Part shown: piece by piece, positions 37,634-59,530 of the stretch
How the letters are laid out: each line of letters opens with the position of its first letter
Position numbering within the stretch: the first letter of the stretch is position 1
DNA from: Strigops habroptila
Taxonomy: Eukaryota; Chordata; Aves; Psittaciformes; Psittacidae
Assembly (NCBI RefSeq): GCF_004027225.2
Contig: NC_044296.2
Coordinates: 4,955,943 to 5,019,942, forward strand
Reading direction: 5' to 3'
DNA: 64,000 nucleotides
Made by a program: the position numbers and the translations under genes
The notes under the pieces: model-generated
The model's input: only the letters and a program-made list of their open reading frames with translations
Told to the model about the DNA's origin: nothing
Databases searched by the model: none

Positions 37634-37773
37634 GTGAGGGTAGGGCTGGGGGTCTTGGTGTGGGGTCCGAGGTGGGGGACATGGGGGTCAGGGCACCTTG
37701 CTGCCCGCGCTGTGGGGTGAGCTGGCAGCGGCACGGCTTGCACAACCGCCGGCTGACGTGGACCGCTGCCCGC
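37634..37773 (+). other. LRG1: Likely LRG1 5' UTR intron
   Basis: A donor (gggaag|gtgaggg) after 37,633 and an acceptor (ctgcccgcag) ending at 37,774 bracket a short GC-rich intron just upstream of the LRG1 start codon. The upstream exon would be untranslated or start the message near 37,550-37,633. The assignment is inferred from splice signals only. Confidence 0.5.
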
Positions 37774-37784
37774 AGCGCGGCACC

Positions 37785-38789
37785 ATGATGCCACCGGGAC
37801 GGATCCTGCTGCTGGTGCTGGTTCTGCTGCCGCCGGGTCCCGCCGCGCCGTGCTCCCCCCAGCCCAACGCCACCCGGTTCGTCTGCACGGAGCCCACGCT
37901 GCGGACCTTCCCCGCGGGGCTGCCCCGCACTACGCTGGCCATCTCGGTGGAGTTCACGGCGCTCGCCGCCCTCCTGCCCACGGCGCTGGTGCCGGTGCCG
38001 CGCCTGCAGGAGCTACACCTCTCCTCCAACCTCCTGGCCACGCTGCCCGCAGCGCTGCTGCGTCCCGTGCCCGCGCTGCGCGTCCTCGACCTGACCAACA
38101 ACCTCCTGCTCGACCTCCCCACCGACATCTTCATCAGCAATGAGCACCTCCAGCACTTGGTGCTGCGCGGGAACCGGCTGCGGGCGCTGCGTCCCGCGTG
38201 GTTCCAGCACCTTCCCCGCTTGCTCTGGCTCGACCTGGGTGCCAACGCGCTGGCGGAGGTGCCACCGGAGGTTTTCCACCCGCTGCATTCCCTACGGAGC
38301 CTGGATCTGTCCCACAACCTCCTTGCGGCTCTGCCACCGGGAGCGCTGGCCGGGCTGCGGGCGCTGGAGCAGCTCGACCTGGAGGGGAACCGGCTGCTCA
38401 CGCTGCCGCCCGCCTCCTTCGCGCCCGCGCCCGCCCTGCGCCTGCTCTTCCTGCAGGATAACGAGCTGCGGGAGCTGCCCGCCCGCATCTTCCTCCCGCT
38501 GCGCCACCTCCGTGTCCTCGACCTGGCGCGGAACCGGCTGCGGGCGCTGGAGCTGCCCCCCCGCGCCCCCGGCCCCGCGCTGGAGCTGGACATGTCGGGC
38601 AACCCCTGGGACTGCGGGTGCGCGCTGCTGGCGATGCTGCGGAGGGTGGCCCCGCGGGTCACCGCTGCCGCTGACACCCGCTGTGCCAGCCCCGCTCACC
38701 GCCGGGGGCAGGAGGTGGCTGCCCTGAGCGGGGCTGGGGACACGGGCTGTGAGCACAAGGGGGACGGGCAGCACCCGCCGGGCCCATAG
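37785..38789 (+). CDS. LRG1: Leucine-rich alpha-2-glycoprotein 1
   Basis: A secreted leucine-rich-repeat glycoprotein. In mammals it is an acute-phase plasma protein that modulates TGF-beta signalling in endothelium. The coding part is one exon of 334 residues; human is 347. The start is the first of two tandem ATGs in a caccATGATG context, 11 bases after a likely splice acceptor. Frame upstream of it stays open but would precede that acceptor. Visible are a hydrophobic signal peptide (about 1-20), an N-terminal Cys cap (CSPQPNATRFVC), about eight LRRs with the LxxLxLxxN pattern (LQELHLSSN, LRVLDLTNN, LQHLVLRGN, LLWLDLGAN, LRSLDLSHN, LEQLDLEGN, LRLLFLQDN, LRVLDLARN) and a C-terminal LRRCT cap (NPWDCGC...RC). 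One N-glycosylation motif (NAT) is seen. Its place between SEMA6B and PLIN5 matches mammalian synteny. Confidence 0.95.
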   Translation: MMPPGRILLLVLVLLPPGPAAPCSPQPNATRFVCTEPTLRTFPAGLPRTTLAISVEFTALAALLPTALVPVPRLQELHLSSNLLATLPAALLRPVPALRVLDLTNNLLLDLPTDIFISNEHLQHLVLRGNRLRALRPAWFQHLPRLLWLDLGANALAEVPPEVFHPLHSLRSLDLSHNLLAALPPGALAGLRALEQLDLEGNRLLTLPPASFAPAPALRLLFLQDNELRELPARIFLPLRHLRVLDLARNRLRALELPPRAPGPALELDMSGNPWDCGCALLAMLRRVAPRVTAAADTRCASPAHRRGQEVAALSGAGDTGCEHKGDGQHPPGP

Positions 38790-39026
38790 GTGAGGGGTTT
38801 GGTGGCACCGCAGGGGCTCGAGGGTGCCGCCTCCCTCCCTGCTGCTTTGCCCCCAGCCCATAGGAACTCTCCTGGGGAAACTGAGGCAGGGAGAGCCGGG
38901 CTGCAAATGTCCCCATGCTGTGATGCCCATCCCAGTGGCCCCCAGCCCCACCATGGCTCAGGCTGTCCCACGTCCCTGTCCTCATCCTGCGTGGCTCATG
39001 TCCCTGTCCCCACCCCACAAACGCAC

Positions 39027-39032
39027 ATTAAA
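39027..39032 (+). terminator. LRG1: LRG1 polyadenylation signal (ATTAAA)
   Basis: ATTAAA variant signal about 240 bases after the LRG1 stop codon. No AATAAA occurs nearer. Confidence 0.55.
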
Positions 39033-39261
39033 TGCCATCACTTGGAGCCATCCCACTTTCTCCTGTGTTTCATCCTATGAAGTGCCCAGTGACAGGCACC
39101 ACATCCCCCAGCCGTGCCCGTTCCATACTCTCTGTGTCCCCTGCCTGTGCCTGTCCCCATCCAGGCACTGTCCTCGCCCACGGGGATCACCCAGGCACTG
39201 CTGTCCCCTGCCCTGAGCACCCACAGGGGTCAGGGCAGACCTGAGGCCCTGTGGTGCTCCC

Positions 39262-39484
39262 CTTGGCATGGGGACTCCTGGCCTGGGGACATTGGCATAG
39301 AGATGTTTGGCATGGGGACACCGGGTGCTGGGTCATTTGGTGTGGGGACACCTGGGGGGGGGGTGGGGACACTTGGCATGGAAATGCTTGGCAAGGGGAC
39401 AGCTGGCATAGGGACACACGTTAAGGGGACACACGGCATGGAGGTGTTTGGCATGGGGACGCCTGGCATGGGGACATTGGGCAT
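39262..39484. repeat. TTGGCATGGGGACA minisatellite
   Basis: Imperfect tandem units of about 22-24 bp built on tggcatggggacacctggca, between LRG1 and PLIN5. It shares the GGGGACA core with other arrays in the window. Confidence 0.85.
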
Positions 39485-39719
39485 TGTGCGGTGGCTCGGT
39501 GCCCCTGGCCACCCCTCCGGGACGGGGTGTCCCCGTCGTGTCCCCCCCGTGTCCCCTACCGCGTCCTTCCATGCGCCCGTGTCCCCCTTTGTGACTCCCC
39601 CGTGTCCCCCCGTGTCCCCCCCGTGTCCTCCCCATGCATTCCCCTGTCCCCCCCATGTGTTCCCCCTTTTCTCCCCCCCCTTCCCCCCGTTTCTCCCCCC
39701 ATAGGTCCCGGGCCCGGAT

Positions 39720-39905
39720 CGTTCCCCGCGCACGTGGCGGCCAGCCCCCAACTCCCGCCCCCCTTGGCCCCGCCCCTCCATCCTAATTGGTGGAGACCAG
39801 TCCCTCCCCTTCTCTGATTGGCTCCCGCCGCCAACTGGGAATCCGACCCTGGGCGGGAGTCGGGGATCGCGACCGGGGATCGCGACAGACCCCCCGCCCC
39901 CCACT
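39720..39905 (+). promoter_or_regulatory. PLIN5: Likely PLIN5 promoter and untranslated first exon
   Basis: A CpG-rich stretch with two inverted CCAAT boxes (ATTGG at 39,786-39,790 and 39,817-39,821), a tandem ggggatcgcgac duplication and a donor (ccact|gtaagc) ending an exon at 39,905. The PLIN5 start codon sits 11 bases behind an acceptor at 40,873, so an upstream non-coding exon is needed and this fits. No TATA box is seen. Confidence 0.5.
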
Positions 39906-40139
39906 GTAAGCACCGTCCTCGGGAGTTCGCGGTAGTTAGAGGGTCGGAAGCGGGACCGCGGGGGGTGCTCCGGGGGTTCCCGGGGGGTGTTTCGGGGCTC
40001 GGGGGTGCTCCGGGGGCTGGCGGGGGGTAGAGCCCGCTGTGGCCGCAGGCAGGGAGCAGGGGCTGGGGAAGGGGAGTCCCGGGTGTCCCCCCCTCCGTGA
40101 TGGGTGCCCCGGAGCACCCAGGAACCCCGGTGGGGGGGA

Positions 40140-40295
40140 CACATGCTTCCGCGGGGACCTGCCCCCCAGGGACCCAAAGGGCCACCCCCAGGGACCCAAA
40201 GGGCACCCCCAGGGACCCAAGGAATCCTGCCCCCCAGGGACCCAAAGGGACACCCCGGGGACCCGAAGGGACCTGCCCCCCAGGGACCTGCTTGC
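40140..40295. repeat. Short CAGGGACCCAAAGGG minisatellite
   Basis: About six imperfect copies of a 20-30 bp unit (gacctgccccccagggaccc, aaagggcaccccc) in the presumed first intron of PLIN5. Confidence 0.8.
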
Positions 40296-40884
40296 GACCC
40301 CCCAGCCCTTGCCCCGGGGTGCACAGGGGTGGCAGTGGGGCAGGGACGCTGCAGCAGGGGGACACCACAAAGCTCAGAGACGCTGCCGGGGGGAGGGCTC
40401 GGGGGGGCCACCGGCTGCTCCGTTCCCCGCAGCAGGTCCCGGGGCTGCCCCGGCCGAGGTGACGGTGACCGGTGGCACGTCCACGCTTGGTGCTTGCGAA
40501 AGGAGGACCCAGCCCCAGCTTCCGGCTGAGTCACCCAAAACCCCTCCCCAGCCTCAAACGCGGGTGGGGGGACCCAGGAGGGGATGGGGAAATCCCTCCT
40601 GATAGGGCAGGAGACCAGCCCCATCCCCAAACCCCTTCCAGACTCCCCCATGACCCCCCCTTGAGCAGCTCTGAGGCCTCCCACTCATGTAATGAGTCGA
40701 TGGGTCTCAGCCCTCCAAGGGGTAGAGGCTGGCTGGGGTGACATGGGGGCGGCTCAGCCCCAGCATGTGCTGCTTCCCTCGGCACGGAGAGGGGTGGCTC
40801 TGAGGCCGGGGGTCCCCACTGGGCTCAGTCCCCCCATTGGCACCCCATGATCTTGCTCTTCTTCCCATTGCAGCCACCGCTGCC

Positions 40885-43841
40885 ATGTCATCCAACAACT
40901 CTGTGCCCCGAGAGGATGGGCCGGAGCTGAAGGTAGGGGTGCGAGGAGGGCTGAGGGGGGGCTGTGGGCACCGCTGGTGCCCCCGGCTCAGCACCAGCAC
41001 CCCCTGACAGAGCGTGGTGAGCCGGGTGGCCAGCCTGGCCCTGGTGAGCTGTGCCTGCGGCGCCGTGTCCACGGCGTACAGCTCCACCAAGGAGAGCCAC
41101 CCCTACGTGCGCTCCGTCTGCGACGCCGCCGAGAAGGGGGTGAAGACGCTGACAGCGGCGGCGGTCAGTGGGGCACAGCCCATCCTCACCAAGCTGGAGC
41201 CGCAGCGTGAGTGGGGCTGGGGGGGGGGGCAGCAGCACAGGGGTAATGGGGGGACCCCAAAACTGGCCCCTGCAGAGCCCTGGTGAGGCAGCAGGGTAGG
41301 AATGATCTGGTTCCATGTCTCTAGATTGCCAACAAACATGGCTGTAAAGGGTTGGAGAAGCTAGAGGAGAAGCTGGGGGGAAGGGGGGGCAGCACCCCAC
41401 AAGTTTTGGGGTACCCCAGAAACTGTCCCTATAGCAGCACTCTGGAAAGGCAGCAGGGTAGGGAAAAGCTGGTTTCTCATTTGTAGTTTCCACCTCTAAT
41501 GAATACACCTGCAAAGGGCTGGAGAAAGTTGGGGGGGGGGATATAGGGGCACCCCATGAGCTTTGGGGTACCCCAAAGCCTGTCCCTGGCAGCGCTCTGA
41601 CACTCAGCAGGGTATTAAACCATCTGTGCTCATGTCTCCAGTGTCCACCGCCAACGAATACGCCTGCAAAGGGCTGGACAAACTGGAGGAGAAGCTGCCC
41701 ATCCTGCAGCAGCCCCCGCAGAGGGTAACGTCTCCCCCGGGTGAGGCGGGGGGGGCCGGCGCTGGGCTCGGTGCTGGCACATGGCGCCCCTGTGCTGTCC
41801 CCTCCCAGGTGGTGGCAGGGACCTGGGCGCTGGTGTCCTGCACCGTGGGGCTGGCGCGCGGCGCGGTGCAGGGCGGCATGGCCAGGACGTGCTCGGTGCT
41901 CAGCACCGGCGTCAGCACCGTGGCGGGGTCCCGCGTGGGCCAGATGCTGGCAACGGGGATGGACACGGTGCTGGGCAAGTCGGAGGAGCTGGTGGAGCGA
42001 TACCTGCCTGGGACGGACGAGGAGCCGGGTGAGTATCAACCACACTCTAAGCCATCTCCTCAACCTAGGGGTGCTGGAGCCCCCATTGCTCAGCACCAGC
42101 CCGGCATTGCTTGCCCCCAGTGGTCCCTCTGCAGTGCTGAGCCCCATGGGATGCCCATGGCCACCGCGCAGGGGATGATTCCCACCGTCGGGAATGCTAA
42201 GCCGGGGAACACAACACTGCACAGGGTGACCTCTCACCTGGAAACCAGAAAGCAAATATAGCCCCACGCCGGGTATTTATAGCCTGGCACGGGGCAGTGG
42301 TGGGCAGAGCTGGCCCTGTGTCATGGCAGAGGTGACCGGAGACACCACCTGGCTTTTGGTGGCACCTCCACATGAACACGGTGGCCGAGCATCTTGGGGG
42401 TGGCACCTCTATGGGGCACAGAGCTCCAGGGGCTCACGTGGTGGGATGCTCCAGTGCTGGGCACACTGGTCTGGGCAACGCTGGGGGAACGGTTGGACTT
42501 GTTCACCTTAAAGCTCTTTTCCAAGCCGGTTTATGCTGTGGGTCTCTGGGGGTCTCCCCCCCTGTCCCCGCAGCGGCGGCGGGCGCAGAGGTGGCAGCAC
42601 CGGGGCAGCAGAGGCGGTGGCAGAGCTACTTTGTCCGTGTGGGCTCGCTCTCGGCAAAGCTGCGGCACCGGGCGCTGCGGCGCTCGCTGGAGGAGCTGCA
42701 GCGGGTACGGCACAGCGCCCAGCACGTCCTGGCCCAGCTCCACCGCGCCATCGAGCTGGTACGGATGCGGTGAGGACCGCGCCAGCAGCGGCGGGTGTTG
42801 GTACCCCCATGGGGTGCTCCCACCTCGCTGTCCCGTCCCGCAGATCGAGCAGATGCGGCAGGGCATGGACGGGCCCCTGTACGGCACCCGGCAGCGGCTC
42901 CACCGCATGTGGCTGGAGTGGAGCCAGCAGGAGGCTGTGCCCATGGAGGAGAGCGAGGTACGGGGCTGGGTACCCAGGGATGACACTGAGGTGTGGGGTG
43001 GGAGGCCGTGCCCATGGGGAAGACCATGGTATGGGTCTGGGGTACCTGTAGGCGACACTGAGGTGTGAGGGCCTGTGGCCATGGTGGCGACAATGGTATG
43101 AGTCCAGGGTACCATAAAAAATACACAAGCGTGGGGTGGTGGGCCATGGCCATGGGAGGCAGTGAGATACGGGGTTGGGGTCCATGGTCATGGGAGGCAG
43201 TGAGATACGGGGCTGGGGTCCATGGTCATGGGAGGCAGTGAGATACGGGGTTGGGGTCCGTGCCCATGGGAGGCAGTGAGATACGGGGCTGGGGTCCATT
43301 GCCATGGGAGGCAGTGAGATATGGGGTTGGGGTCCGTGCCCATGGGAGGCAGTGAGATACGAGGCTGGGGTCCATGCCTGTGGAGGACACCACGTCCCGA
43401 GGGTGCCCCCGCTGCCCGCAGGTAGAGGCGCGGACCCTGGCCATGCTGCGGGGGCTCCTGCACCAGCTCCACGCCGCCTGCGCCCGCCTGGCCGCCGGCA
43501 TCCGGGGCCTGCCCAGCAGCGTGCAGGAGACGGCGGGACACGTCCGGCACAGCGTGGAGGGCGTCCAGGCGTCCCTGTCCCACGCCCGCTCCTTCCATGA
43601 CCTGTCGGAGCTGGTGCTGGCGCAGAGCAGGGAGACGGTGCTGCGGGCGCAGCTGAGCATCGACGAGCTGCTGGAGCACGTGGGGCAACACACGCCCCTG
43701 CCCTGGCTCGTGGGGCCCTTCGCCCCAGCCCTGGTCGAGTACCCGGAGGATGTCCCTGTGGAGATGGCCAAGTGGGAGGGTTGTGACACTGTGGAGGGGA
43801 CGCACCATGTCCCCGCTGCCCCACGGCTCAACCAGCGCTGA
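40885..43841 (+). CDS. PLIN5: Perilipin 5, 7 coding exons, with converted PAT region
   Basis: A lipid-droplet coat protein. In mammals PLIN5 links droplets to mitochondria and restrains lipolysis in oxidative tissue. Exons: 40885-40932, 41011-41206, 41642-41724, 41809-42028, 42574-42758, 42844-42957 and 43422-43841, in phase, 421 residues; human is 463. Visible are the PAT domain (about 17-110, with [15 protein letters not shown]), a short amphipathic 11-mer region (about 110-165), [18 protein letters not shown], and a C-terminal helix bundle ending in [10 protein letters not shown]. The ALVEYPED continuation after that motif resembles PLIN5, not PLIN3, and the gene lies next to LRG1 as PLIN5 does in mammals. 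Oddly, residues about 35-81 are identical to those of the next gene and resemble PLIN3 rather than human PLIN5 (see the findings). The exon 5 donor is gtacgg; a later gtgagg would add residues absent from relatives. I saw no clear AATAAA. Confidence 0.88.
41325..41375 (+). pseudogene. Decayed copy of PLIN exon 3, relic 1
   Basis: This lies inside PLIN5 intron 2. It follows an intact acceptor-like tgtctctag and reads gccaacaaacatggctgtaa and then aagggttggagaagctag, matching real exon 3 (41,642-41,724). It ends where the real exon encodes PILQQ, with no donor. Entered from exon 2 at this acceptor it would be out of frame. It is therefore a dead tandem exon duplicate. Confidence 0.8.
41487..41528 (+). 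pseudogene. Decayed copy of PLIN exon 3, relic 2
   Basis: A second relic in the same intron, behind an acceptor-like catttgtag. From exon 2 it would read in frame as [14 protein letters not shown] before running into a G-tract with no donor. It is closer in sequence to the functional exon than relic 1 and is shared with the neighbouring perilipin gene at 45,571. Confidence 0.85.
42478..42540 (+). mobile_element. Degraded CR1 3' end in PLIN5 intron 4
   Basis: A short, diverged match to the last bases of CR1 (ggttggacttgttcacctta followed by aagctcttttccaa). It is the oldest-looking CR1 in the window. Confidence 0.5.
43148..43380. repeat. 41-42 bp minisatellite in PLIN5 intron 6
   Basis: About six tandem copies of a unit like atgggaggcagtgagatacg followed by gggttggggtccatg(g/c). 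They fill the intron up to the last coding exon and explain the repetitive LPPM.MDP frames on the minus strand. Confidence 0.92.
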
Positions 43842-44800
43842 GCCAGCGGCGCATCAAACTGGGGCAGCACCCACAGCAGTGAACCCCATCCCCACTGGGG
43901 ACGAGGTGACGTGGACGTGGTGGCCGGTGTGGGACCTGTGATGCCGCAGATGGGGGACTTGTTTGGGGAGCGAGGGGATGGTGGCACACGGAGGACGCAG
44001 CGTGTGCGGGTGTCCCGGAGCATGGGAAGCATCCGGATGTCTTGTCTTAGCAGCTTCAACGCACTTTAAAGAAGTAAAACAACTTTTTAGGCCTCAAAGT
44101 GACTCACAGCCCCTTGTGGTGACACCGCCACCGTGCCGGGGGGCTCGGCACAGGCGGCAGAGATGGGGCTGTGGAATGGGGAGAGTACGGTGGGTGCTGG
44201 GTTGGGGAGAACTGGATGCTGCTGGTGAGTGCTGGGATGGAGGGTGCCAGCGCGGTGCCGGTGCTGTTGGACTGTGACCCGCGGCCGTGTGGCGCTGAAC
44301 CTTGTCCCGTTGCCATGGCTGCGGGGCCAGGCTCCGGGCATCCCTGACATCGGGGTGCAGCGTGGCCACGGCACCCACAGGAGTGGCACCAGGGTCCCCG
44401 GGACTGTCTGTCCTCCTGCCACCGACACCCACCGGGACCAGTCTGAACTGGGGCAGGTCGGGGGGGGGCACTGGGATGCCCCCGATGGGAGCGGGGTTTG
44501 GAGGGTTCAGTGCCTGATTTGACCCGGGGGTCGGTGTCAGGGGCCGTCGGTCTGGGGGGGATCCGGTCCCGGAGGGATGCGGTCGGGGGAGATCCGGTCC
44601 TTGGGGGGGGGGTCAGCGCATCCCGGTCCAGAGGGGATCGGTGCATCCCGGACCGGGAACTTGGGGCCTGGGGCGGCCGGTGCAGCCCGGAGCCGCGGGG
44701 CCGGGGCCGGTCGGGGTCGCTGCAGCCCCGGGCCCCGCCGCTGCCCGCGGGTCGGTGCTCCCGCACCGCCCCGGACCGGCCCCGGGGGGCGGGTCCCGGT
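43842..44800. other. PLIN5 3' flank and intergenic
   Basis: PLIN5 3' UTR followed by GC-rich intergenic DNA. I saw no AATAAA; gaagtaaaac near 44,070 is the nearest A-rich motif. Nothing else was recognised before the next promoter. Confidence 0.4.
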
Positions 44801-44887
44801 CACATGTGCTCGGGGCCGGGCCCGGCCGCTATAAAGGCCGGTGGGGAGGGACGGGGCCGAGCCCAGAGTAGAGCCGAGCTTCGGGAG
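44801..44887 (+). promoter_or_regulatory. TATA promoter and first exon of the PLIN3/4-type gene
   Basis: CACATGTG E-box at 44,801-44,808, TATAAA at 44,830-44,835 and a strong donor (cgggag|gtgagt) ending an untranslated exon at 44,887, all in a CpG-rich setting. The start of transcription should be about 44,860. Perilipin promoters are often driven by E-box and nuclear-receptor factors. A PPAR site was not evident. Confidence 0.65.
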
Positions 44888-44895
44888 GTGAGTCC

Positions 44896-44937
44896 GGTCC
44901 CGGTCCCGGTCCCGGTCCCGGTCCCGGTCCCGGTCCC
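44896..44937. repeat. (GGTCCC)7 hexanucleotide repeat
   Basis: Seven perfect copies of GGTCCC, beginning 8 bases into the first intron of the PLIN3/4-type gene. Confidence 0.97.
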
Positions 44938-45021
44938 ACGCGGGGTTCCCCCATGCTGGAGGTGAGTGAAGGGCTCGGGGGGGTCTGACCCCGCTCACGG
45001 TTCCCCCTCCCCAGCCCCGCC

Positions 45022-47096
45022 ATGGCCACCAGCGAGCCCGAGACGGCGCAGCCCAAGGCTGAGGAGCAGCAGGTCAGTGGGGAGAAAGGGGGTGTCCGGG
45101 GGGGATGTCCCTGCCTGGGGACAGGGCTGTGGGTCATCCGAGTACCCCAACGCCATCCTCGGGGGGTTGGGGGCACACAGTGTCCCTTATTCCCTATGAG
45201 ATTTGGGGGCTCCATCGTCACCCCCCCCCGTCCTTATGGTGCCCGCAGAGCATCGGGATGCGGGTGGCCAACCTGCCCCTGGTGAGCTCTGCCTACGGGA
45301 TGGTGTCCACGGCGTACAGCTCCACCAAGGAGAGCCACCCCTACGTGCGCTCCGTCTGCGACGCCGCCGAGAAGGGGGTGAAGACGCTGACGGCGGCGGC
45401 GGTCAGTGGGGCACAGCCCATCCTCACCAAGCTGGAGCCGCAGCGTGAGTGGGGCTGGGGGGGGGGGGCAGCAGCACAGGGGCAATGGGGGGGACCCCAA
45501 AACTGGCCCCTGCAGATTGCCCTACCTGGAAAAGCAGCAGGGTAGGGAAAAACTGGTTTCTCATCTCTAGTTTCCACCTCTAATGAATACACCTGCAAAG
45601 GGCTGGAGAAAGCTGGGGGGGGGGATATGTAGGGGCACCCCATGAGCTTTGGGGTACCCCAAAGCCTGTCCCTGGCAGCGCTCTGGCACTCAGCAGGGTA
45701 TTAAACCATCTGTGCTCATGTCTCCAGTGTCCACTGCCAACGAATACGCCTGCAAAGGGCTGGACAAGCTGGAGGAGAAGCTGCCCATCCTGCAGCAGCC
45801 CCCGGAGAAGGTACCGTGCTGGGGTGGGCTCAGTGCGTGCGTCCCCCTCCCCAGAACTGCTTAACAGAGGGTTGTGTGTGTGCCCCCCCAGCTCATCTCA
45901 GACACCAAGCAGCTGGTGACCTCCACAGTGACGGGGGCCAAGGATGTCCTGACCAGCACCATGGCCGGGGCCAAGGACGCAGTGACCAGCCGGGTGACGG
46001 GTGTGATGGACATGACCAAAGGGGCCGTGCAGGGCAGCGTGGAGCTCACCAAGTCCGCGGTGAGCAGCGGTGTCAGCACCGTCATGGGCTCCACCGTGGG
46101 CCAGATGGTGGTGAGCGGCATGGGCTCCGTGCTGGAGAAGTCGGAGGAGCTGGTGGACCATTACCTGCCCATGACGGATGAGGAGCTGGGTAAGGAGCTG
46201 CTCAAACCCCCTGGGGAGCAGTGGGTAGAGACTGAGCAGGTTCTCCATGGGGTTGTGGTGCGGCTTCTCTCCCACAGCCAAGCTGGCCACGGCCGTGGAG
46301 GGCTTCGAGCCGGAGCAGCAGAAGCAGCAGCAGAGCTACTTCGTGCGCTTGGGCTCGCTCTCGACCAAGCTGCGGCACCGGGCGCTGCAGCACTCGCTGG
46401 GCAAGCTGCAGAGCGCCCGCCACAGCAGCCAGGACGTGCTGGGCCAGCTCCAGCGCACCCTCGACCTGGTAGGACCCATCCCCATGTGTGCCCCCCCTCC
46501 TTGGTGTCTGCAGCGGCGCATCCACCCCAGGCTCTGCCTCTCCCCGCAGGTGGAGCAGCTCAAGCAGGGCATGGACCAGAAGCTGCAGGGAGGGCAGGAG
46601 AAGCTGCAGCAGATGTGGTTGGAGTGGAGCAAGAAGCAACCGGGCAGTGGCAAGGACCTGGCGCCACCGGAGGTAGATGGAGGGCATGGGGGGGTTTCGA
46701 GGGGGTGCCGGGGTGCCCTCAGCCCCTCACGGCGCTGTTGTCCCCCCGCAGGCAGTGGAGTCGGGCGCGCTGGCCCTGCTGCAGGGCTTGACGCAGCAGC
46801 TCCAGAGCTCCTGCCAGCCCCTGGTGTCCAGCCTGCAGGGGCTCCCCGCCAGCATCCAGGACACGGCGGGGCAGGTCCGGCACAACGTGGAGGGGCTGCG
46901 GGCGGCGCTCGGCTCCGCCACCTCCCTGCAGGACGTGACGGGCACCGCGCTGGCGCAAGCCCGTGCCCACGCCACCAAAGCGCGGCAGCTGATGGATGAG
47001 CTGGTGGAGCACGTGGCTCACAACCCCCCGTTGACCTGGCTGGTGGGACCCTTCGCCCCCTCGGGCCAGAACGTGGTGGAGCTGGAGATGAAGTAG
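45022..47096 (+). CDS. PLIN3-like: Perilipin of PLIN3/PLIN4 type, 7 coding exons
   Basis: A lipid-droplet coat protein. Exons: 45022-45072, 45249-45444, 45728-45810, 45892-46189, 46278-46468, 46550-46672 and 46752-47096, in phase, 428 residues; human PLIN3 is 434. The start (cgccATGGCC) is 7 bases behind an acceptor. Visible are the PAT domain (about 18-110, with [20 protein letters not shown] and [18 protein letters not shown]), amphipathic 11-mer repeats (about 111-190, such as [20 protein letters not shown] and [17 protein letters not shown]), [40 protein letters not shown] and the terminal TWLVGPFAP bundle. The sequence is closest to PLIN3, but the position next to PLIN5, on the HDGFL2 side, is that of mammalian PLIN4. 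PLIN4's long 33-mer array is absent. It could be the avian PLIN4 orthologue in unexpanded form. The naming is uncertain; the family is not. Confidence 0.92.
45571..45615 (+). pseudogene. Decayed copy of PLIN exon 3 in the PLIN3/4-type gene
   Basis: An acceptor-like catctctag is followed by tttccacctctaatgaatac and acctgcaaagggctggagaa, nearly identical to relic 2 of PLIN5 (41,487). It lacks the rest of the exon and a donor. Only one relic is present here, against two in PLIN5. Confidence 0.85.
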
Positions 47097-47357
47097 CATC
47101 ATCTGCACCATCCTCCGGGGTGCTTGGTCCCCCCTTGCCCAGCCTCAATAGAGCATCTACTAACCCCTGCCTGGCGCCCACCTTGCCCATAACCTTAGTG
47201 CCTGCCTGTATTGGGGGTGCAGTGATGTGCCTTGGTTCTCCCATGTGCCTTTGGGGTGACCTCCAGCCCCTGGTTGGAGCCCCCCTCCTTGTCCCCTCAT
47301 CCTCAGTGCCTTCAACACTCTCTGGTCCTGTATGGGGTCAGGGGTAGCTCCCGAAGC

Positions 47358-47363
47358 AATAAA
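47358..47363 (+). terminator. Polyadenylation signal of the PLIN3/4-type gene
   Basis: AATAAA about 260 bases after the stop codon, followed by a GT-rich ttgtgttttgggg stretch, as expected of a cleavage site. Confidence 0.85.
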
Positions 47364-47461
47364 CTCTGGTTAGTTTTGCATTAGAACGAGTTGTGTTTTG
47401 GGGGGGTGGGAGCGGGGTCCCCATGGTTCCATCGACCCCAAAAGGGGGGGGAGGAAGGTGG

Positions 47462-47507
47462 TGATGTCATAGCCCTGCGTGACCTCACAGCGCCTGAGGC
47501 TGCCAAT
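47462..47507 (+). promoter_or_regulatory. Putative promoter elements of the mini-perilipin gene
   Basis: A CRE-like TGATGTCAT (47,462-47,470), TGACCTCA (47,480-47,487, containing a nuclear-receptor half-site) and CCAAT (47,503-47,507) cluster within 46 bp. They lie 85-130 bp upstream of the ATG at 47,591. No TATA box is seen. Confidence 0.45.
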
Positions 47508-47590
47508 AGAGTGAAGGAGGGGGCAGTGCGGTGCTGAGCCCTCAGGACCCCGCCGAGCCCACAGGACACCGGCCTCGGCCTCCCACCACC

Positions 47591-48392
47591 ATGGCTGAGG
47601 GTAAGTGAACAGCCCCCCCAGACCCTTGTGGGACCAGGGGCACCCCCAGCTTAAGGGCAGGACCTGCTCATCATGCTGGGAGCAAACAGGCAGCCCCCCT
47701 CTGCCCCTATCCCCTGCAGCAGCACCCTGCTCTGCCCCCTCCAGTGGCAACAGCCCCAGGGCGCTGTCTTGGGGCACAGAGCTGCAGCAGGGTCCCCCTG
47801 TGCACCCCTCAAAGGAGATGAACACCAAGCCGCCCATCTTGGCCCCTCCACAGGCATGGCTGGACCCCAAGATCACAGCGGGGCTCCTGTGGGACCCTGC
47901 AGCTGCAGTCCCCACCTCCAGGGCTTGTTGTTCCCTTGCTTGGTGACCCTCATGTTAGTGCCCCATGGGACATGGGAGGGGGTCCTCCCATGCACCCAAA
48001 CCAGCACCACCATCCCCTTGGTTGTAGCCACCATCTGGGGGTGGGGGGGTGATCCCCACTATGTGTGTGCCCCCCCATACCCACGGTGCCATTTCCACCC
48101 CCCAGACAACGCAGAGGAGCTGCGGCGGGACGCGCAGGAGCCGTGGGGGGGCAGGAGGCGGGCGAGCGCAGAGGAGGGCCCCGCGGTGCCGCTGGCGCGG
48201 CGGCTGCAGGACGCGCTGCAGCAGGCCCTGCGCCGGGCGCGCCACAGCATCAGCGAGCTCCACAGCGCCTTCAGGCAGGCCGCGTCCGTGCGGGAGCTGC
48301 TGGGGACGGTGGTGGCCCGAGGCCGGGAGATGGCGGCCCAAGTCTGGGAGGACCTGGTGGCGTACCTGCTCCAGCACCCGCTGCTGCTCTAG
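47591..48392 (+). CDS. Mini-perilipin: two-exon gene encoding about 98 residues like the perilipin C-terminal helices
   Basis: Exon 1 is 47591-47600 (ATG GCT GAG G|gtaagt, in a ccaccATGG context). Exon 2 is 48106-48392, behind a cccccag acceptor. The join is in phase and gives 98 residues. Residues about 46-98 (ARHSISELHSAFRQAASVRE onward to VAYLLQHPLLL) align with the penultimate helices of the two perilipins upstream ([20 protein letters not shown] to [13 protein letters not shown]). The protein stops just before the family's WLVGPFAP motif. It has no PAT domain and no 11-mer array. The N-terminal third is acidic and Arg-rich. The gene sits directly after the PLIN3/4-type gene in the same orientation. 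It may be a truncated tandem duplicate that stayed open or a new small lipid-droplet or apolipoprotein-like protein. I do not recognise a named gene. Further exons in the 505-bp intron cannot be excluded. Confidence 0.6.
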
Positions 48393-48609
48393 ACGGAGGG
48401 TGCAGCCCTAAGCGCCGAACGGAACCAGCTCCAGCTCCATGCGAGGGCCTGAAGCCCTCCCTGACGCACCAACAAGGCTCTGCTCAAGCTCGCGTCTGTA
48501 TCTTGGTGCTATTCTGTGCTGCCCTCTGCGCCGAGGGGGGGCTGCAACAGCCAAAGGCAAGGGGGGAGTTGGGGGGATACCGATAGAATGACCTTGGATC
48601 TGCCTTTAA

Positions 48610-48985
48610 ATCATACAATCATGGAATGGTTTGGGTTGGAAGAGAGATTAAAGCTCCTCCAGCTCCAACCCCCTGCCACGGGCAGGGACACCTTCCACTA
48701 GAGCAGGTTGCTCCAAGCCCCTGTGTCCAACCTGGCCTTGAACACTGCCAGGGATGGGGCAGCCACAGCTTCTCTGGGCACCCTGTGCCAGCGCCTCAGC
48801 ACCCTCACAGGGAAGAGCTTCTGCCTTATCTCCAACCTGAACTTCCCCTGGTTCAGTTTGAACCCATCACCCCTTGTCCTATCGCTCCAGGCCCTGATGA
48901 AGGTCCCTCTCCAGCATCCTTGTAGGCCCCTTCAGACACTGGAAGCTGCTCTGAGGTCTCCACCCAGGCTCTCAATACCCCTGCG
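48610..48985 (-). mobile_element. CR1 LINE 3' fragment
   Basis: Reverse-complement CR1 3' end of about 375 bp, beginning tcatggaatggtttgggttgg. It is well preserved and closely matches the copy at 1157-1506. Confidence 0.95.
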
Positions 48986-49555
48986 TGACAGCCCAAGGGG
49001 GGGTCACACCTTGATGGGGCAGTGTGGGGCTTAACCAGCCCCTCCTGGGGCACACGGACACATCCCCATGTCCCCATCTGCGATCCCCAGCGTGAGGAGC
49101 TGGCTCCCCTCCATGTCTCTCCCTCTCTCCATGGCGTGAGGGTGGGGCTGAGCTCCCAGGCCCACACTGGGCACAGCAGCCCCGTCCCCCCCCAGCTCTG
49201 CCCTGTTGGGCAAGAGGCAAAAGGTTGTATTTGGGTTTTGTTTATGGAGCATGAAATCAGCCCTGGAAAAACAAAAAGCAACCAACGTCTCCCCAGGGCA
49301 GGGTTACAGCAAGAGCAGCCTCCGAGCGGGGTCGGGGCACGGCCACAAAGAGGAGCCGGCGCCGGGGCTGGAACATCCTTATTTTCCATGTCCAAAGGCT
49401 TTGGCTCTTTGCAGAAGAGCAGGCAAAGAGGCAGAGCTGCTGCCCAGCAGGTAGGGGGCTGGGGTGCAGTGGTGTGGGGGGGTCCCAGTGCCAGCGCTGG
49501 GGCAGGGGGAGGCTCCTGCCCTCCCCTCGGCAGCGATGCCTCAAGAAACACACAC
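48986..49555. other. Intergenic between the mini-perilipin and HDGFL2
   Basis: No gene or repeat family recognised. It separates two convergently transcribed genes. Confidence 0.45.
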
Positions 49556-49878
49556 TTGGGGCTTCATTAAAAAAACCCTTTATATTCATTTCATGTCGGT
49601 TGAAATCACAAGAAATCAGGTGGGAGGGAAAAAACAAACAAAAAAACCAAAATAATAAACCAAAAAAAAAAAGAACAAAACAGAAACGAAAAGAAGGGAC
49701 AAATACAGACAAACCAGCAGAGCCCCCCCCGGGGCCGGGGCACAGGACAAGACCTAAGGACATCAGCTACTGCGTGACTTAGTGAAGTGACTCAAGCAGG
49801 GGCCGAGGCAGAGGATGGTTCCCCCTCGCAGCCCCTCGGCCTCCTCCTCCTCCTCCTCCTGGGGTGGGAGCTGCCTCC
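49556..49878 (-). terminator. HDGFL2: HDGFL2 3' UTR and likely poly(A) region
   Basis: The - strand downstream of the HDGFL2 stop runs through a U-rich stretch (complement of the A-rich 49,628-49,700) to an AATATA variant signal in the complement of 49,575-49,590, then a T-run. No canonical AATAAA is seen on the - strand here, so the cleavage site is approximate. Confidence 0.45.

Positions 49879-59530
<9,652 letters not shown>

Follow-up and report, generated by a model that had tools for sequence, protein, structure and literature searches.

In the 64,000-nucleotide stretch of Strigops habroptila DNA analysed here (the window), PLIN5 and the perilipin gene next to it, which we call X, are nearly identical over a bounded tract that covers most of exon 2, the whole of intron 2 and almost all of exon 3, and are strongly diverged elsewhere. 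We attribute this tract to interlocus gene conversion between the two genes, whatever its direction or the number of rounds, with a probability of about 0.92.

Both genes are members of the Perilipin family (Pfam PF03036), with E 1.4e-137 and 459 bits for PLIN5, and E 2.6e-171 and 571 bits for X, the Pfam cut-off being 33 bits. They are arranged in tandem, head to tail and in the same orientation, with start codons 4.1 kb apart, and all of their modelled introns are GT-AG (Table 1). Intron 6 of PLIN5 also contains a 38-bp minisatellite of 6.4 copies (window 43133-43376).

Table 1 Coordinates of the two perilipin genes, the homogenised tract and the intron-2 repeat units (window positions).
Feature	Position	Strand	Remarks
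PLIN5	40885-43841	+	7-exon CDS, 421 aa; GT-AG model, open frame
PLIN5 CDS exons	40885-40932, 41011-41206, 41642-41724, 41809-42028, 42574-42758, 42844-42957, 43422-43841	+	
X, neighbour perilipin (presumed human PLIN4 slot)	45022-47096	+	7-exon CDS, 428 aa; GT-AG model
X CDS exons	45022-45072, 45249-45444, 45728-45810, 45892-46189, 46278-46468, 46550-46672, 46752-47096	+	
Tract in PLIN5	41065-41718	+	Spans the 3' 142 bp of exon 2, all of intron 2 and the 5' 77 bp of exon 3; from alignment and per-part counts
Tract in X	45303-45804	+	From alignment and per-part counts
Unit A of PLIN5	41217-41380	+	Decayed exon-3 copy from ~41325; unit alignment
Unit B of PLIN5	41381-41540	+	Decayed exon-3 copy from ~41487; unit alignment
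Unit C of PLIN5	41541-41697	+	Includes the greater part of the working exon 3 (41642-41724)
Unit H of X	45455-45622	+	A/B hybrid; unit alignment

Over the tract, the two genes differ at 10 of 488 aligned bases, 270 of which are intronic, a total that omits the PLIN5-only segment 41277-41441, of whose 165 bases 9 can be aligned, with 1 difference. One of 142 bp differs in the exon-2 part, which encodes 47 identical residues out of 47; in intron 2 there are 1 and 6 differences over 70 and 200 aligned bases, respectively, and 2 of 76 bases differ in exon 3 up to position 41717. Outside the tract, the differences rise to 13/54 in the 5' part of exon 2, 51/216 in exon 4, 36/176 in exon 5, 29/89 in exon 6 and 87/322 in exon 7 (203 of 803 bases for exons 4-7), and, of introns 4 and 6, no more than 103/545 and 122/464 bases can be aligned. 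One edge of the tract falls within exon 2 and the other 6 bp short of the end of exon 3, and the diverged flanks on both sides are in homologous, paralogous register. The first-pass annotation had reported this near-identity from position 41065 of PLIN5 and 45303 of X onward, with a single difference over the last 136-142 bp of exon 2 and far more diverged coding sequence outside, all of which is borne out by the counts. Its statement that the match includes the intron holds for 263 of the 270 aligned intron bases, but the match is not a single block, as ~155 bp in intron 2 of PLIN5 (about 41277-41432) have no counterpart in X. The tract is therefore 502-654 bp long, PLIN5 exceeding X by a net 152 bp. 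A DNA search of the genome (1.149 Gb, 89 contigs), which scored the best candidates only and whose counts are lower bounds, gave at least two loci for the tract and one weak match, to exon 2 of a further perilipin gene, located on contig C13 (77% over 82 bp). Synteny, the size of the genome and a CR1-like repeat point to a bird.

The clustering of identity is far from what a random distribution of differences would give. The longest stretch with no more than three differing codons covers 73 of the 395 aligned codons, compared to 35 codons for the best of 100,000 permutations, none of which reached the observed length. By the Nei-Gojobori method, silent sites have diverged by 0.056 within the tract and by 0.52 outside it (0.364 on the upstream side, 0.538 for exons 4-7), and the 73 tract codons contain no amino-acid change, for a dN of 0.41 outside. 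When the comparison was confined to the 148 of 395 codons that encode the same residue and are silently variable, the differing codons numbered 2 of 44 inside the tract, against 37 of the 104 outside it (Fisher p = 3e-5), and 6 of 100,000 permutations reached the observed run.

Intron 2 and exon 3 of PLIN5 are built of units of ~158 bp, each combining intron sequence with a copy of the greater part of exon 3. There are three such units in PLIN5 (A, B, and C) and two in X (H and C), the introns measuring 435 and 283 bp, respectively, by the exon coordinates. The first half of unit H resembles A and the second half resembles B, with ~9 bases at the join that fit neither well. Identity between unit types is 64-70%, except for B and H (82%) and for the two C units (96%). 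The decayed exon copies can still be aligned with exon 3 of a further perilipin of the same contig, hereafter L009: 81% over 37 bp for the relic in unit A (E 8e-5) and 85% over 26 bp for that in unit B (E 0.003). By our reading of the sequence, the relics may have originated from the joining of an internal GCTG of exon 3 to the GCTG and G-run that lie close to the 5' end of intron 2; such junctions would leave them without the 3' part of exon 3 and its donor. Scanning intron 2 for donor patterns turned up the true donor and a donor-like GGTGAG at ~41282, ahead of relic A, and no donor-like site after relic A or B. Weaker GT sites do occur in the intron, for instance GTAAAG within relic A. Splicing of the relics seems unlikely. 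Self-comparison of three other perilipin genes, a set that leaves out PLIN1, revealed the array in none of the three, suggesting that it is probably older than the latest homogenisation. One unit was probably lost from X, or skipped while copying.

Gene conversion is the best reading of these data because the intron and the decayed exon copies are nearly identical as well as the working exons, and it is well supported by the homologous register on both sides of the tract together with the identity at silent and intronic sites, array included. Probably, one gene copy suffered a break whose repair used the other as template, with no crossover, and this repair would have overwritten intron 2 together with the larger part of exon 2 and almost all of exon 3. 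The older exon-3 array in intron 2 would have offered additional homology and perhaps favoured the exchange, and it would itself have gained or lost a unit. With 7 intron substitutions in 270 bases and neutral rates assumed at 1.5-3e-9 per site and year, the last exchange would date to roughly 4-9 My ago, with outer limits of 1.7-18 My.

Interlocus gene conversion is a well-known process. In the sections on tract length of the review by Mansai, Kado and Innan (2011, PMC3924818), experimental tracts, mostly from yeast and hamster cells, average 200-500 bp, which the present tract somewhat exceeds. As in the conversion between paralogues treated in those sections, a bounded tract of some hundred bp that includes an intron is embedded here in old paralogues; what differs from the cases treated there is that this tract holds an array of exon relics and a difference in unit number. 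Among the titles and abstract starts listed by a literature search, none describes conversion between PLIN5 and X.

The first-pass annotation had proposed conversion or a local duplication, and not selection. The identity of intron and silent sites sustains the conversion part of this proposal, and a fresh local duplication is not well supported, because exons 1 and 4-7 are diverged and proper to each gene. If there had been no conversion but only strong purifying selection, acting on splicing and on the PAT domain, this would agree with the higher conservation that the PAT core shows over the downstream part in the pairs of paralogues examined, an excess which is slight between L009 and the C13 perilipin L011 (0.45 vs 0.42) and between L009 and PLIN2 (0.50 vs 0.44). 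Nevertheless, near-identity in the tract extends to silent sites and to the intron with its relics, the latter being beyond what selection on the protein can explain, and three further paralogues in the genome show 24-32 residue differences out of 74 from the tract; we find this explanation hardly credible. An assembly artefact, in which the reads of one copy were used at both loci, is slightly less improbable, since near-identical paralogous stretches can be assembled wrongly, but it too remains very improbable: the ten substitutions and the 152-bp length difference between the copies argue against a collapse of reads, and there are no N bases in 38500-50000, on a contig of 5.65 Mb in an assembly of 89 contigs.

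Within gene conversion, the tract may be only the latest round of a repeated process, i.e. concerted evolution, a variant that we consider possible, if tentatively. It is in line with the pairing of PLIN5 and X even outside the tract, and with array units that are old (64-70% identity between types, 82% for B and H) yet common to both genes. One event and several are inseparable from a single genome, and the two parts of the tract that meet at the join of unit H show no significant difference in age: 2 of 212 bases differ on one side and 8 of 276 on the other (p = 0.20), so that tracts of unlike age are not supported.

Agreement between trees of the tract and of its flanks had been named beforehand as a sign against conversion, and the topology is indeed the same in both. 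In trees of five sequences of this genome, PLIN5 and X pair with a support of 98 outside the tract and 80 inside, and of 72 and 86, respectively, when two human proteins are added (PLIN1 is in no tree). The branch lengths are very different, the summed terminal branches of PLIN5 and X being ~0.03 inside the tract versus 0.75-0.77 outside. The shared topology does not weaken the case for conversion, because PLIN5 and X are in any case each the other's closest relative in this set.

We moderately favour copying from X into PLIN5. PLIN5 is the faster-evolving gene outside the tract, with PLIN5:X ratios of unique changes of 51:27, 46:37, and 52:26 against three outgroup paralogues. In a rate test, placing the tract on the X branch gains 5.8-6.8 lnL over the PLIN5 branch in all four set-ups, and, among control blocks that overlap and are drawn from the very columns used to build the tree, those of PLIN5 itself were negative in 5 of 5 cases and those of X positive in 4 of 5. 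In simulations, none of 100 on the PLIN5 branch reached the observed 6.39 (largest 2.94), and none of 100 on the X branch did either (largest 5.21). The tract is thus slower than both models, which indicates that regional constraint contributes, and local constraint may be what drives the rate test.

The opposite course, from PLIN5 into X, would have the repairing strand slip from unit A to unit B and thereby delete one unit. This variant would account for the A/B hybrid unit H by placing tract and deletion in one event, and the lack of a clear difference in distance to PLIN5 on the two sides of the H join fits it; copying from X into PLIN5 requires an extra loss of a unit in X, which copying into X with a template switch does not. 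We nevertheless regard it as rather unlikely, since the rate of the tract is closer to that of X than to that of PLIN5, and PLIN5 has the larger number of unique changes outside the tract. The earlier proposal that a PLIN3/4-type sequence was copied into PLIN5 therefore agrees with the direction favoured by the rate test, but the simulations fit neither branch and the array hints at the opposite. The argument that had been given for it, namely the strong difference between human PLIN5 and PLIN3 in this segment, proved weak. At 39 diagnostic sites, PLIN5 carries the residue of human PLIN3 at 24 and that of human PLIN5 at 7 in the tract, and the corresponding numbers are 25:7 for X, 13:5 for L009 and 18:4 for the C13 gene. 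Since the same leaning to human PLIN3 is seen in X and in two further paralogues, human residues are uninformative on direction and were set aside; human PLIN5 is presumably the divergent one in this segment.

The identity of X is best approached from its position. L009 (C21:4857148-4860923), found by a genome search, lies ~136 kb before PLIN5, with UHRF1 (identified by a PDB match) on one side and TICAM1 and an ankyrin gene, which we take to be FEM1A, on the other. We assume that the human PLIN3 slot extends from UHRF1 to TICAM1/FEM1A, and that the human PLIN4 slot lies between HDGFL2 and PLIN5-LRG1. L009 occupies the PLIN3 slot, so X is not in the PLIN3 location. Instead, X is flanked by PLIN5 and a gene for a leucine-rich repeat (LRR) protein (37644-38786), presumably LRG1 by its position, and, past a mini-ORF, by an HDGFL2-like gene, as expected for the PLIN4 slot. 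The HDGFL2-like ORF (50364-51254) matches HRP2 (HDGFL2) in the PDB with E 1.2e-7, over 25 residues only; Pfam gave no family for it, nor for any of the three ORFs on the HDGFL2/UBXN6 side. The name PLIN3 for the neighbour thus conflicts with synteny. Sequence type and position disagree, and calling X PLIN3 is unsafe.

Exon structure does not follow the slots. Exon 4 of X is 298 bp long and does not hold the long 11-mer repeat array of PLIN4. Exon 4 of L009 (in C21:4855500-4863500) contains tandem repeats of 132 bp and 54 bp, and a 16-residue motif, AAQGAKDLVTNKVTEA, is repeated eight times in it; tandem repeats in exon 4 are a PLIN4-like trait. The mini-ORF between X and the HDGFL2-like gene encodes 98 aa in two exons (window 47591-47600 and 48106-48392, + strand) and resembles perilipin C-terminal helices only, with a blastp E of 4e-8 to X in a five-sequence set and an E of 2.5e-5 to Pfam Perilipin, under the cut-off. 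Possibly, it is a truncated third member of the cluster.

In the portion of the eLife 2017 study that concerns this cluster (PMC5342826), PLIN4 is held to be restricted to mammals, and birds are given PLIN3 and PLIN5. The arrangement found here resembles the tetrapod PLIN3/4/5 cluster described there in that the perilipins of one chromosomal region are in tandem or nearly so, and differs from that description in having three genes, one for each of the PLIN3, PLIN4, and PLIN5 slots, in addition to the mini-ORF. Synteny questions this published view of PLIN4 as mammal-only.

In human PLIN3 numbering, the tract spans residues 42 to about 114. According to the PAT-domain sections of a study of this protein (PMC10694602), residues 53-85 and 86-107 form amphipathic helices, and strong binding of diacylglycerol depends on E86, which belongs to the LEPQ motif. 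PLIN5 and X thus share the whole PAT core, including LEPQ. The helices and the LEPQ with its E86 match those described there for human PLIN3; unlike human PLIN3, which has I and S, both genes have L at position 89 and N at position 93. The shared PAT core may also mean shared lipid binding. If related birds carry the tract, their PLIN5 would share its droplet-targeting core with another perilipin, and whole-protein PLIN5 trees would be misleading in these birds. PLIN5 is the mitochondria-linked perilipin. We would advance only with considerable doubt the combined proposal that the intron-2 exon-3 array is a recombination hot spot, that PLIN5 and the PLIN4-slot gene share their PAT core through repeated conversion while their other domains diverge, and that the PLIN3/PLIN4/PLIN5 cluster predates the split between birds and mammals.

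Other perilipin sequences were observed in the genome. L011 (C13:3713000-3719000), on another contig than PLIN5, is a multi-exon perilipin with 49-50 of the 74 tract residues identical. It could be a relative of plin6, a gene reported, in the portion of PMC5342826 cited above, as lost in lobe-finned vertebrates; when the assembly was searched for the family of FLAD1, taken as a marker of plin6 synteny for this gene, no match came up. L013 (C7:57373500-57378000) is a single open PLIN2-like stretch which spans several exons without introns and looks like a retrocopy. Lastly, L014 (C26:48469500-48472000) consists of perilipin C-terminal fragments on the minus strand, distant from the PLIN2-like gene of contig C26.
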